From NCBI RefSeq assembly GCF_017163705.1, contig NZ_JAFIWB010000017.1, forward strand, positions 1 through 64,000: a stretch of DNA of 64,000 nucleotides, written 5' to 3'. The notes below the pieces were generated by a model. The model was given only the letters and a program-made list of their open reading frames with translations, was not told where the DNA came from and ran no database searches. The first letter of the stretch is position 1. The number at the start of each line of letters is the position of its first letter. The DNA is from Xanthomonas bonasiae. Lineage in GTDB: Bacteria > Pseudomonadota > Gammaproteobacteria > Xanthomonadales > Xanthomonadaceae. Both the position numbers and the translations under genes were made by a program. Below are positions 39,698 through 46,510 of the stretch, one piece after another.

Positions 39698-41038
39698 CTA
39701 CTCGCTCAGCTTGCGGATCAGCTTGTCCCAGTCCTCGCGCAGCTTGCCGTCGGTCTCCATCAGGTGCTTGATCTGCCGGCAGGCGTGCAGCACGGTGGTG
39801 TGGTCGCGGCCGGCGAACGCATCGCCGATCTCCGGCAGGCTGTGTTCGGTCAGTTCCTTGGTCAACGCCATCGCCACCTGCCGCGGCCGCGCCAGCGAGC
39901 GGGTGCGGCGCTTGGACAGCAGGTCCTTGATCTGCAGGCCGTAGTAGTCGGCCACGGTCTTCTGGATGTTGGGGATGCCGATCGCCTGCTGTTGCGCGCG
40001 CAGCAGATCGCGCAGCGTCTCCTGGGCAAACTCGGTGGTGATCGCGCGGCCGGTGAAGTTGGCGCGGGCCGCCAGCGTGTTGAGCGCGCCTTCCAGGTCG
40101 CGTACGTTGGAGCGCATCTTCTTGGCGATCAGGAACGCCACGTCGTCGGGGATCTCGGCGCCGCGTTCGCGCGCCTTGGCCAGCACGATCGCTGCACGGG
40201 TCTCGAAGTCGGGCGGGTCGATCGCCACCGACAGGCCCCAGGCCAGGCGCGACTTCAGCCGCGGCTCCAGGCCTTCGACCTCGCGCGGGTAGCGGTCGCA
40301 GGTCAGGATGATCTGCTGGCGGCCGTCGAACAGCGCGTTGAAGGTGTGGAAGAACTCTTCCTGGGTGCGGTCCTTGCCGGCGAAGAACTGGATGTCGTCG
40401 ATCAGCAGCGCGTCCACCTGCTGGAACTGGCGCTTGAACTGGTCCATGGTCTTGTCCTGCAGCGCGCGGATCATCGCGCTGAAGAACTGTTCCGAGCGCA
40501 GGTACATGACCCGCGCGTTGGGGTTCTGCTCGCGCATCGCGTTGCCGGCGGCGAACATCAGGTGGGTCTTGCCCAGGCCGGTGCTGCCGTACAGCAGCAG
40601 CGGGTTGTGCGCGCGGTCGCCGGGTTTCTGCGCCGCCTGCGTGGCCGCGGCCAGGCCGAGCTGGTTGCTGCGGCCTTCGACGAAGTTGGCGAAGGTGTAG
40701 TGCGAGTCGAGGTTGCCGGCGAACGGTTCCAGCAACGGCGCCGGCGGCGTGCGCGCGGCGGCCGCATCGCTGGCGACCGGGGCCACCGGCTCCGGCGCGC
40801 GCGGACGCGAGCCGACCTGCAACGCCACTTCGCCGCTGCCGGCGAAATAGGTCATCAGTTCGCGGATCCGCGCCAGGTAGCGCTCGCGCACCTGTTCGAC
40901 GATGAAGGCGTTCGGGGCGTACAGGACCATGCTGTTGTCATGGCGCTGTTCGGCTTGCAGCGGTTTCAACCAGGTGTGAACGTCCTCGGCTGGAAATTCA
41001 GCTTCCAGACGTTCCAGGCAACGGGGCCAAGCATCCAT
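39698..41038 (-). CDS. dnaA: Chromosomal replication initiator DnaA
   Basis: A 446-aa AAA+ initiator that binds DnaA boxes and melts oriC. Domain I opens [16 protein letters not shown]. The variable linker is Ala/Pro-rich around 90-110. The AAA+ domain has Walker A in [19 protein letters not shown] and Walker B in [11 protein letters not shown]. The C-terminal DNA-binding domain has the signature [19 protein letters not shown]. The start at 41038 fits known Xanthomonas DnaA; the frame is open for 48 codons upstream but that part is not DnaA-like. Confidence 0.98.
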
Positions 41039-41228
41039 CAGATGTAATTCATTGAGAGACCAGGCGTGAGGCGCGAACGATCGCGGCGCACTCGGCCGGT
41101 GAAAAGAGGAAAGCGGATGGGTCAGACTACCATCGGCACGCAGGGTCTGGAATGGTTTTCCCGCATCTATGCACAGATCCATCCACAGGCCGCACGCAGC
41201 GCCCGTCTTGGCGCCGGATAAAGAGCAG

Positions 41229-41931: not shown

Positions 41932-43671
41932 ATGAACCAGACCCGCCTTTTCCTGATCTTTGCCTGGCTGATGGTCGCGGCCCTGTTGTGGATGGAGTGG
42001 AACAAGGAGCACGCCGCGCCTGCGGCCGATGCGACCGCCATTGCGGCCGCGACCACGGTGCCGCCCGCGCAGGACGCCGATGCCGGCGCCAGCGGCGCAC
42101 CGGCGGTGCCGCGTGCCACCCAATCCGGCGCTGCAGCCGTGCCCGGCGCCGCCAGCGAGACCGCCGCGCCGGTCGCCGCCGGTGCCGCGCCGCGGGTCAC
42201 CATCACCACCGACGTGCTGCACCTGACCCTGGACGGGCGCAGCGTGTTCGACGCGGACCTGCTGCTGTTCCCGCAGACCAAGCAGCCCGGCAGCCCGCCG
42301 GTGGCGCTGCTGACCGAGGATCCGGTGCATCCGTATACCGCCACCAGCGGCTGGGTCGGCGAAAACAACGCGCCGTCGCCGGGTCCGGGCGGTTTCCGTC
42401 CGGAACAGCCGGGCAAGGACTACGTGCTGGCCAAGGGCCAGGACGCGCTGCAGGTGCCGTTCGTGTGGAACGGCCCGGACGGCATCAGCATCCGCCGCGT
42501 CTACACCGTGCAGCGCGGCCACTACGCGGTGCAGATCAAGGACGAGATCATCAACCAGGGCAGCAAGCCCTGGCAGGGCTACGTGTTCCGCAAGCTGAGC
42601 CGGGTGCCGACCATTGTCAGCCGTGGCATGACCAACCCGGATTCCTTCAGCTTCAACGGCGCCACCTGGTTCAGCGCGCAGGATGGCTACCAGCGCCGTG
42701 CGTTCAAGGATTTCCTGGAAGACGGCCCGGTCAACCAGACCATCAAGGGCGGCTGGATCGCGCTGCTGCAGCACCACTTCTTCACCGGCTGGATCCCGCA
42801 GGCCGACCAGGAGGCGGTGTACGTGCTGTCCAACGACGGCCCGCGCCACGTGATCGAGGCGCGCGGCCCGGGCTTCACCGTCGCCCCCGGCGCGCGCGCC
42901 AGCAGCGAGGCGCGGCTGTGGGTCGGCCCGAAGCTGGTCAACCAGATCGCCAAGGAAAACGTGCGCGGCCTGGACCGCGTGGTCGACTACAGCCGGTTCT
43001 CGCTGATGGCGATCCTGGGCCAGGGCCTGTTCTGGGTGCTCAGCCACCTGCACACCCTGCTCGGCAACTGGGGCTGGTCGATCGTCGGCCTGGTGATCCT
43101 GCTCAAGCTGGTGCTGTATCCGCTGTCGGCCGCGCAGTACAAGAGCATGGCCAAGATGCGCAAGTTCCAGCCGCGCATCCAGCAGCTCAAGGAGCGCTAC
43201 GGCGACGACAAGCAGAAGTTCCAGACGGCGATGATGGAGCTGTACAAGAAGGAGAAGATCAATCCGATGGGCGGCTGCCTGCCGGTGCTGGTGCAGATGC
43301 CGATCTTCTTCGCGCTGTACTGGGTGCTGGTGGAATCGGTGGAGCTGCGCCAGGCGCCGTGGTTCGCCTGGATCCAGGACCTGACCGCACGCGATCCGTA
43401 CTTCATCCTGCCGGTGATCAACGTGGCGGTGATGTGGCTGACGCAGAAGCTGACGCCGTCGCCGGGCATGGACCCGATGCAGGCGCGGATGATGCAGTTC
43501 ATGCCGCTGGTGTTCGGCGTGATGATGGCCTTCGTGCCGTCGGGCCTGGTGCTGTACTGGGTCACCAACGGTTCGCTGGGCCTGCTGCAGCAGTGGTGGA
43601 TGACCAAGCGCCACGGCGAGCCGGCCACGGCCGGTGCCGGCGCCAAACCACCGGCCAAGACGAAGAAGTAA
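41932..43671 (+). CDS. yidC: Membrane protein insertase YidC
   Basis: A 579-aa inner-membrane insertase of the Oxa1/Alb3 family. The first helix ([20 protein letters not shown]) is followed by an Ala/Pro-rich linker, then the large periplasmic beta domain of Gram-negative YidC (about 85-355). The five conserved helices follow from 365, with the [28 protein letters not shown] hairpin and the [24 protein letters not shown] block. A basic C-terminus (PAKTKK) could contact ribosomes. Confidence 0.97.
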
Positions 43672-43678
43672 ATCCGAC

Positions 43679-43702
43679 AACGCCCGCCGCCAGGCGGGCG
43701 TT
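43679..43702 (+). terminator. Hairpin after yidC
   Basis: A perfect 10-bp stem AACGCCCGCC/GGCGGGCGTT with a GCCA loop starts 7 bases after the yidC stop. No T tract follows, so it may attenuate rather than stop transcription into the next gene. Confidence 0.5.
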
Positions 43703-43765
43703 GCGTATGCGGCCGCGGCACTGCGCGCCCGCCTGTCCTGCCACCGTCCTTGCGAGTCCCGGGCC

Positions 43766-46510
43766 ATGCTCGACCGCCGTTCCGTCTCCCTGCTGTCCAC
43801 CGCGCTGTGCCTGCTCGCGCTTGCGCTGCCGGGCTGCCAGCGCAGCACGTCGTCCACGGCCACCGCCGCGGGCGCCGCGCCGTCCGCGCACGCGGCGGAC
43901 ACCGACGCCACGCCGTTGCCGGGTTCGCCCGCGCTGCAGGCGCAGGCCGCGGCGATCCGCACGCAGCTGCAGGAACAGCTGGCGGCGCAGCGCAAGATCA
44001 TCGTGCTGCTGGCCGACGAGGCCAAGCAGTCGCCGGCCGAGCGGCAGACCTCCAGCGGCGTCGGCCAGCAGCTGTTCCACGAAGGCCTGGAGCGGCGCGA
44101 CGCGTTGGCCAAGCAGTTCGATGCGTTGCTGGCGCAGCCGGACGCGCAGCGTTTCGCCGCGGTCGGCGCGCTACTGGACTACGTCGAATCGGCGCCGGAC
44201 CTGTACGACGCCGACCGCCTGGCGTTCCGCGAGATCCTGGCCGACTGGCAGACGCGCATCGGCAAGGATTCCTCGCTGCCGGCGATCAAGCTGCACCAGC
44301 GCATCGGCGAGGATCTGGAAGCGCTGGACGAGATCGAGCGCAGCTACAACCGCGAGATCACCGCGATCTTCAGCCGTTTCGACCGCACCCGCGCGATCGT
44401 GCAGAAGCGCGAGAAGTGGGAGGACTACGTCGCGCATCTGGGCACGCTGTACACGCGCGAACGCATCCTGCGCGACTACGGGGTGATCACCCCGTATCCA
44501 ATGTCGATGAAAGACAGCGACCGCGAGGTGTTCGGCCGCGACCTGCCGCCGAAGACGGTGGTACTGAGCTTCGACGACGGCCCGCATCGCGAGTACACCG
44601 ACGAGATCGTCGCCATCCTCAAGCGCTACGACGTGCCGGCCACGTTCTTCGAGGTCGGCCGCAACCTGGGCAAGCTCGATGCCGACGGCAAGGTCGAACT
44701 GGCGCCGCTGGCCAGCGTCAGCCGCGAGCTGATGGAGCAGGGCTATACGGTCGGCAACCACAGCCTGACCCACGCGCAGCTGTCCAAGGAAACCGGCGCC
44801 GCGCTGCGCAGCCAGATCCTGGACACCGACCGCATGCTGCGCGCGGTCGATGCCAAGCGCGCGCCGCTGTTCCGCTTCCCGTACGGCGCGCGCAACGCCG
44901 AAGGCATGCAGATCCTCGGCGAAGCCGGGCTGAAGTCGGTGATGTGGAACGTGGACTCGCTGGACTGGGCCGATCCGGTGCCCGAATCGATCGTGCAGCG
45001 CGTGCTCGAGCAGGTCGGCCGCGAGCAGCGCGGCATCCTGCTGTTCCACGACATCCACGCACGCACGGTCAAGGCGCTGCCGCAGATCCTGGACCGGCTC
45101 AGCGCCGACGGCTACCAGTTCGCCGCCTGGAACGGGCGCGACTTCAGCGTGGCGCGCGCGGCGGCCAACGCCGCGGCGCCGGCGGTGACCAGCGGCTACG
45201 ACAAGTCGTGGGCGATCGTGATCGGCATCGACGACTACGCGCACTGGCCCAAGCTGCAGTACGCGGCCAACGACGCGCAGGCGATCGCGCAGACGCTGAC
45301 CGGCAGCTTCGGTTTCCCGTCGTCGCAGGTGATCGTGCTGAAGAACCAGGAGGCCACCCGCAACAACATCCTGGCCGCGTTCCACGACCGCCTGGCGCAC
45401 GGCGGGGTGGGCAAGAACGACCGCGTGTTCGTGTTCTTCGCCGGGCATGGCGCCACCCGCAAGCTCGCCTCCGGGCGCGACCTGGGCTACATCGTGCCGG
45501 CCGACTCGGACCCGGCGCAGTTCGCCACCGACGCGATCCCGATGACCGAGATCCAGGACATCGCCGAGAGCCTGGAAGCCAAGCACGTGCTGTTCGTGAT
45601 GGACGCCTGCTACAGCGGCCTGGGCCTGACCCGCGGCGGCGGCGGCACCGGCGCCTATCTGCGCGAGAACGCGCGGCGCGTGGCGCGGCAGATGCTCACC
45701 GCCGGCGGCGCCGACCAGCAGGTCGCCGACAGCGGCCCCAACGGCCATTCGGTGTTCACCTGGGTGCTGCTGCAGGCGCTGTCGGGCAAGGGCGACCTCA
45801 ACGGCGACGGCCTGATCACCGGCACCGAACTGGCCGCGTACGTGGCGCCGGCGGTGTCGAGCATCTCGCCGCAGACGCCGGCGTTCGGCAGCCTGCCCGG
45901 CTCGCAGGGCGGCGAGTTCGTGCTGCAGGTGCCGGACGGCGACGAGTTCCTGACCGCCAACACCCAGCAGCTATCCTCGGCGGCGATCGCGATGAACGAC
46001 CGGGTCGCGGCGGCGGTGCCGGCGGTGGCCACGCCCGCCACGGCGACGGCTGCATCGGCCGCGGCACCGGCGGCCAAGCCTACCGTGGTCAAGGACCTGC
46101 AGGGCGGCGAGCGGCCGCTGGCGGTGCCGGCCGCCGCCGGGCCGCTGTCCGATCGCCAGCAGGCGCAGCGCGCCAACGACCGCGGCCTGCAGCTGTACAA
46201 GGAAAAGCGCTACGACGAGGCCGAGGCGCAGTTCACCGAAGCGCTGAAGCTGCGACCGGACTTCGCGCTGGCGGCCAACAATCTCGGCTTCATCTACTAC
46301 CGCCAGGGCAAGTACGCACAGGCCGCGCGCTGGCTGGAGAACACGCTGAAGATCGATCCCTCGCGCGCGGTGGCCTACATCAATCTCGGCGATGCGTACC
46401 GGCAGATGGGCGATGCGGCCAAGGCCAAACACGCGTTCCAGACCTATCTGGAACTGCAGCCGAGCGGCGCCTCGGCGGCCTACGCGCGCACCCAGCTGCA
46501 GACGTTGTAG
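43766..46510 (+). CDS. Lipoprotein fusing NodB deacetylase, caspase-like protease, EF-hand loop and TPRs
   Basis: A 914-aa envelope protein. The lipobox LALPGC places the lipidated Cys at 24. A helical region (about 55-240) is followed by a NodB polysaccharide deacetylase domain (about 262-455), with SFDDGP (D270, D271), the metal pair NHSLTH (H332, H336) and RFPYGARN. Next is a caspase-like (C14) domain from about 485. It has His561 in FFAGHG and Cys615 in MDACYSG, 54 residues apart. A canonical EF-hand loop [12 protein letters not shown] sits at 677-688. The C-terminal 110 residues are TPRs. It probably acts on cell-wall or exopolysaccharide glycans and on proteins outside the inner membrane; substrates are unknown. 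mnmE follows after 29 bases. Confidence 0.88.

Follow-up and report, generated by a model that had tools for sequence, protein, structure and literature searches.

Organization of the locus

The window, a 64,000-nucleotide stretch of Xanthomonas bonasiae DNA (contig NZ_JAFIWB010000017.1, positions 1 to 64,000), contains between yidC and mnmE a single 914-codon frame that starts with an ATG and encodes a 98.7 kDa protein, the features of which are collected in Table 1. Family models place DnaA at 39698–41182 on the minus strand, YidC at 41932–43671, and MnmE from 46540. Three parts of the protein are recognized by Pfam: Polysacc_deac_1 at residues 259–391 (E 2e-27), Peptidase_C14 at residues 481–676 (E 5.7e-22), and several TPR models from about residue 800 to 912, all of them far beyond chance. 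The motifs of these parts are intact, with DDGPH at 270–274, NHSLTH at 331–336 (H332 and H336), GHG containing H561, DACYSG containing C615, DLNGDG beginning at residue 677, and LPGC ending at C24. The original prediction had proposed a NodB Asp pair at 270–271 together with H332 and H336, a caspase-type H561/C615 pair, a calcium loop at 677–688, TPRs and a lipobox on one chain, and all of these are found at those residues, the two enzymes with strong Pfam matches and the other elements by motif or Pfam. In the window's genome this gene is the only PF00656 match at E up to 1e-8, and it is one of five deacetylase-domain matches in all.

Table 1. Features of the gene and of the region directly upstream; positions are those of the window.
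Feature	Position	Strand	Details and basis
Hairpin after yidC	43678..43703	+	GC-rich; 11 bp stem, 4 nt loop, no T run
Coding sequence	43766..46510	+	914 aa: lipoprotein signal - N-domain - NodB/CE4 deacetylase - C14 caspase - linker - TPRs
Signal peptide, lipobox LPGC, lipidated Cys24	43766..43837	+	Predicted, from motif only
N-terminal domain, residues 55-258	43928..44539	+	No Pfam or PDB relative in the searches run
NodB/CE4 deacetylase domain, residues 259-455	44540..45130	+	Pfam, solved-structure matches, alignment
CE4 motif residues			D270 D271 H332 H336 R370 P372 Y373 D397 D400 W401 L426 H428
C14 caspase/metacaspase domain, residues 478-722	45197..45931	+	Pfam, NF047832, metacaspase structure alignments
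Catalytic His561 codon	45446..45448	+	Motif, alignment, yeast metacaspase-1 pairing
Catalytic Cys615 codon	45608..45610	+	Motif, alignment, yeast metacaspase-1 pairing; invariant D613 two residues earlier
EF-hand-type calcium loop motif (12 residues), residues 677-688	45794..45829	+	C-terminal part of the caspase domain
Tetratricopeptide repeats, residues about 800-905	46163..46480	+	Pfam, structure matches

The joining of a deacetylase to a protease had been put forward as new, and here the literature has precedence: the fusion was described as the 'Xanthomonas-type metacaspase', with trmE/mnmE as its neighbor (Asplund-Samuelsson et al. 2012, PMC3501461), and in the available sections of that paper it forms a two-gene operon with trmE/mnmE in Xanthomonas and Stenotrophomonas. 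With both the combination and the operon published by 2012, a finding of this kind is already known. The window protein has the same PF01522–metacaspase–TPR order, the conserved Cys-His dyad and the mnmE neighbor, and its size compares with 97–100 kDa for the described type (PMC3501461). In contrast to the present analysis, the available sections of PMC3501461 make no mention of a lipobox, a calcium loop or an N-terminal domain, and they give the range as Xanthomonas, Xylella, Stenotrophomonas and two Acidobacteria, to which a betaproteobacterial range is added here. Among the titles and beginnings of abstracts listed by further literature searches, no other paper on the deacetylase-caspase fusion was found.

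Conservation and distribution

Matches to the protein at E up to 1e-30 occur in 25 of 198 Lysobacteraceae genomes (the window's included), representing eight of 54 genera, and in 23 of the 25 (again with the window's) the match is unbroken and co-linear from residue 40 or earlier to residue 911 or later. Among named genomes, 167 relatives were confirmed and 80 of them examined in detail; each of the 80 has one frame with both enzymes, matching from residue 82 or earlier to 911 or later, and the protein family extends through the betaproteobacteria as seen from the named loci and their alignment. In wider samples the protein is rare: at E up to 1e-80 there are matches in 3 of 369 class genomes and 7 of 398 phylum genomes (the window's included), one of the seven being a split relative in genome G619. 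Plasmid records yielded no whole-protein match at E 1e-50.

The alignment used below has 104 rows, comprising the window, 22 from Lysobacteraceae genomes, the 80 named loci, and L115; outside it are the broken copies of G092 and G192 (L029–L034) and the split relative of G619 (L116, L150). The CE4 motif residues, H561, C615, D503 and D613 are identical in all 104 intact homologues, with the proviso that the script gathering the rows demanded DDGP, GHG and D[AS]C[YFH]S, so that those letters could not vary among the 104; no locus given to the script failed. The loop residues D677, N679, D681 and E688 are likewise identical throughout, and G682 is present in 97 rows. Among five regions of the protein, mean column identity is highest in the caspase part (0.84, versus 0.81 for the TPRs and 0.79 for the deacetylase), which also has the lowest Ka in all three pairs compared, although its Ka/Ks is the lowest in only one of the three. 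Ka/Ks lies at 0.07–0.39 in each of the five regions (three pairs). A sequencing-error fusion of two separate genes, which the original prediction had named as an outcome that would undo it, is ruled out by the unbroken frames in the relatives and the low Ka/Ks throughout, and the frame is one real gene.

Genome G619 (L191 54–2547) has a distant relative in which the deacetylase half and the caspase half are in separate frames. The N-terminal domain and deacetylase form an intact 441-residue frame, which begins like a signal peptide and in which no lipobox is seen. A downstream frame of 364 residues has the two dyad residues of the caspase together with a loop of the calcium type and an end resembling TPRs; the initial caspase segment falls in a stretch containing stops. 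Two of the 25 Lysobacteraceae genomes with matches, G092 and G192, have broken copies of the gene (L029–L034) that adjoin mnmE, which fits the idea of a dispensable gene. Because the G619 frame is interrupted between the enzymes, two copies are broken, and other genomes show clean absences, the fusion is dispensable.

Genomic context

Within the Lysobacteraceae, yidC is upstream of the gene in all 22 loci whose flank reaches far enough (the other three of the 25 lack such a flank), and at all 25 mnmE lies downstream. Outside this family neither gene is found beside it at any of 55 loci (flank 0.2–6 kb a side). The fixed place between yidC and mnmE near the origin that had been proposed was found in Lysobacteraceae loci only, and because the place is not shared outside the family, the high gene dosage that it was said to imply fails as a general argument. 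In four Lysobacteraceae genomes that lack the gene, one of them in the same genus, alignments show that yidC adjoins mnmE with 92–350 bp between them, so at this place the gene was either gained by insertion or removed by a clean loss, and it is dispensable.

The hairpin after yidC has a z-score of -3.5 in the window, with one of 200 shuffles equally good, and a fully paired stem no shorter than 7 bp follows yidC in 19 of 19 relatives examined out of the 22 with yidC upstream (L044, L050 and L051 are outside the comparison). The stem sequences differ between genera. A scan for consensus promoters and terminators gave neither on the gene's strand and did not list the hairpin, which may nonetheless end yidC transcription. 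The gap between the gene and mnmE is 29 bp, and since the hairpin is conserved and this gap is short, the gene is probably read apart from yidC and together with mnmE. We also considered whether a role could be read from the neighbors outside the Lysobacteraceae, and rejected this, as the top neighbor clusters (5, 6 and 7), which derive from rough ORF calling by codon-position GC, are found in 14 loci of one Oxalobacteraceae group.

Predicted membrane anchor and N-terminal domain

The lipobox cysteine, which follows a basic and then hydrophobic leader, predicts that the protein is a bacterial lipoprotein. There are 48 Lysobacteraceae rows in the alignment, 46 of which have a readable N-terminus (L050 and L052 do not), and a lipobox is present in all 46 by a loose pattern. 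Four of these are weak, those of L013 and L036 (both LATC), L044 (TVAC), and L053 (via an inner Cys), and all four fail a stricter pattern that was scored without 13 opposite-strand loci. A lipobox is also present in L115 and in four rows from metagenome bins, labelled Betaproteobacteria or Azonexus. None of the other 51 rows has one, and all have an N-terminal hydrophobic stretch instead, with no Cys in 49 of them and a Cys outside any box in two; these 51 are betaproteobacterial by record title, except for L098, an 'uncultured proteobacterium'. All 102 rows with a readable N-terminus therefore have either a lipobox or a hydrophobic N-terminal stretch. Membrane retention by either type of anchor looks like the constraint, and the exchange of lipobox for hydrophobic N-terminus suggests that selection keeps the membrane position and not the exact anchor. 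It is from these motifs, with 4 of the 46 lipoboxes weak, that we infer an envelope location.

In a tree from a quick search (SH-aLRT support only) the Lysobacteraceae and the four bin rows form one group with support of 100, and the bin rows nest within the Lysobacteraceae at two places, which suggests either transfer out of this family or misplaced contigs. The four (L048, L054, L056 and L059) are Lysobacteraceae-type copies with a lipobox and have neither yidC nor mnmE in the flank. We take these bins to be of termite-gut origin, going by the isolate names.

The region between the anchor and the deacetylase, residues 55–258, is well kept, with a mean column identity of 63% in a 29-row alignment. 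A search for solved relatives gave none (best E 0.35), and Pfam gave nothing better than E 0.0058 in any of the 29 members. A profile of the domain found it in 4 of 299 phylum genomes, each of which also has the fusion or its split form, although the search scored up to 10 first-look candidates a genome and standalone copies are possible. As far as these searches go, the domain is undescribed and private to the fusion.

Deacetylase domain

Carbohydrate esterases of family CE4 share a set of five motifs: Asp-Asp, H-x3-H, R-x-P-Y, D-x2-D-W and L-x-H. The full set is present in all 104 aligned rows, the window's among them. Of the solved structures closest to this part, most are CE4 (NodB) enzymes that deacetylate peptidoglycan or chitin (e.g. 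PDB 7fbw and 2c1g). They match residues of about 260–453, and the catalytic motif residues are shared; unlike the window protein, these are deacetylases alone, and neither the caspase nor the TPR part is matched in those chains.

Another envelope lipoprotein with a NodB domain is PgaB, the lipid-anchored PNAG deacetylase. With the PgaB model TIGR03938 the window protein scores 26.6 bits against a cut-off of 321.9, far under the family threshold. The PNAG synthase PgaC was also sought: at E up to 1e-30 it was found in none of nine same-genus genomes, eight of which have the gene, and above cut-off it is present in 13 of the 23 gene-carrying genomes versus 5 of 18 without the gene, the latter being those that happened to be listed in the family scan. 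A PNAG-linked role is not supported by these counts, and because PgaC is absent from all nine same-genus genomes PNAG is not a general substrate.

Caspase domain and calcium-type loop

All seven solved-structure matches of the caspase part, obtained with the family profile at E up to 0.1, are metacaspases, the matches lying mainly over the first half of the domain. In a single-sequence alignment to yeast metacaspase-1, H561 pairs with the histidine of GHG and C615 with the cysteine of DSCHSG, while D503 and D613 fall opposite the acidic residues in the 'ND' and 'DSC' motifs of metacaspases. We take the equivalent acids to form the metacaspase S1 pocket for Arg or Lys. Because D503 and D613 are invariant and match these pocket acids, cleavage after Arg or Lys, not after Asp as in caspase-3, is predicted. 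Such specificity accords with published work on caspase homologues of this kind, which cut after basic residues (PMC6426788), specifically Arg or Lys (PMC7475262). The domain is thus like metacaspases and orthocaspases (e.g. PDB 4f6o, 6w8s and 9n3d) in C14 sequence, H/C dyad and the two acids, and unlike them in having an anchor and a deacetylase on the same chain. Metacaspases and orthocaspases are told apart by whether they have a p10 subdomain (PMC6426788), and the Pfam Peptidase_C14 match spans profile positions 2–195 of 233. In the phylum sample PF00656 matches best at L117–L141, where 9 of the 10 loci listed have a DACR-type cysteine motif, a caspase type other than that of the window with its DACYSG.

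The EF-hand loop consensus has 12 residues, with D-x-N-x-D-G and a Glu at position 12, and residues 677–688 fit it. EF-hand proteins bind calcium with helix-loop-helix units in pairs; here one such loop is seen, and Pfam reports no EF-hand model at E up to 1. The loop is included where the NCBIfam caspase model NF047832 aligns, at residues 481–696, although this match is under the model's cut-off. Among 27 caspases outside the intact family, seven (one of them the split relative L150) have D-x-[DNS]-x-[DNS]-G 59–74 residues after the catalytic Cys, compared with 62 here; the other 20 have no loop, and most of these have a shorter stretch at that place. L176, scored as loop-less, has a similar acidic stretch one residue longer that is outside the pattern. 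In a wider caspase set the dyad pattern fitted 4 of 30 loci, and none of the four has the loop. The NF047832 alignment and the 27 caspases indicate that the loop belongs to the caspase domain, being present in some bacterial caspases and missing from others, and that it is not a separate EF-hand domain. Its place is, we presume, unlike the calcium sites of plant metacaspases. EF-hand motifs have been reported in seven archaeal orthocaspases (PMC6426788). Because its key residues never vary in the family, the loop is probably important here, with calcium binding putative; one EF-type loop on its own does not always bind calcium, and the description of the protease as calcium-gated is a guess.

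Proposed function

We favor, at a probability of roughly 0.55, a reading in which the Xanthomonas-type metacaspases are membrane-tethered, periplasm-facing bifunctional proteins that combine an anchored CE4 enzyme with a metacaspase-type protease, a calcium loop and TPRs. The N-terminal lipid, or the hydrophobic N-terminal stretch in betaproteobacteria, would fix the protein in the envelope, where the CE4 domain would most likely deacetylate an N-acetylated glycan, either peptidoglycan or a polysaccharide of the cell surface. For the C14 domain the likeliest role is that of a metacaspase-type protease cutting after Arg or Lys; the calcium loop within it may stabilize or switch the protease, and the TPRs could bring a substrate or regulator. 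Domain order, intact motifs, invariance, anchor-type N-termini and distribution are seen directly in the sequences, and from these we infer the activity of each domain, the basic P1, the part played by calcium, the substrates and any coupling of the two enzymes. A more ambitious version, in which the caspase of the Xanthomonas cell-death literature is no cytoplasmic executioner but an anchored envelope sentinel whose Arg/Lys metacaspase is switched by periplasmic calcium through the loop within its protease domain and couples proteolysis of a partner to glycan deacetylation through the private N-terminal domain, is offered tentatively, and we hold it doubtful.

The protein has also been tied to Xanthomonas programmed cell death, in which it would act as an executioner, a caspase-3-like protease on cytoplasmic targets. 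PMC3501461, which links the family to cell death, traces the connection to an antibody study (Raju et al. 2007) where caspase and PARP antibodies cross-reacted with the deacetylase-caspase of X. campestris pv. glycines (GI 88792532). DEVD-cleaving activity has been measured in dying Xanthomonas cells (PMC4006831). However, in the available text of PMC4006831 the terms 'caspase gene', 'metacaspase' and 'deacetylase' occur 0 times and no gene is named for that activity, and DEVD substrates are described as not to be used for such caspase homologues (PMC7475262). The executioner role is moreover at odds with the protein itself: an N-terminus that looks like a lipoprotein or membrane anchor should put the chain outside the cytoplasm, and the invariant D503 and D613 predict Arg or Lys at P1, not Asp. 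We regard this role as very unlikely.

Two further readings concern the relationship between the enzymes. One is that the caspase domain cuts its own chain and so frees the deacetylase, as raised in the original prediction, or the TPR part. The orthocaspase MaOC1 becomes active once it has cut itself after an Arg (PMC7475262). In all 104 rows four positions after C615 (R623, R637, R638 and R641) are basic, as is R746 in the stretch from caspase to TPRs. Self-cleavage inside the caspase domain, or at R746, is possible. Release of the deacetylase gains nothing from the sequence, however, as the linker at residues 456–480 has no basic residue kept in at least 90% of rows (the best, R464, is basic in 78 of 104), which for a predicted Arg/Lys cutter means that such release is not a conserved design; a protease-released deacetylase is accordingly improbable as an account of the family. 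In the other, the work is done by the deacetylase, and the caspase domain serves for regulation or binding, as might be read from G619, where the 441-residue deacetylase-half frame with its signal-peptide-like start is intact and the start of the caspase is interrupted. G619 is a single genome, however, and a non-enzymatic module would be expected to lose its dyad somewhere, whereas H561 and C615 are invariant and the caspase part has the highest column identity and, in every pair, the lowest Ka; we think this reading unlikely too.

What the present comparison adds to the described family is its betaproteobacterial range, the exchange of one anchor for another, the invariance and shared position of the calcium loop, the N-terminal domain without relatives, and the clean presence or absence of the gene at the yidC–mnmE junction. 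If the predictions of a membrane anchor and of a basic pocket are right, this protein is an unlikely source of the DEVD-cleaving activity reported for Xanthomonas cell death, and the long-standing question of the role of bacterial caspase homologues could be put to the test with a protein whose other enzyme directs attention to the cell envelope.
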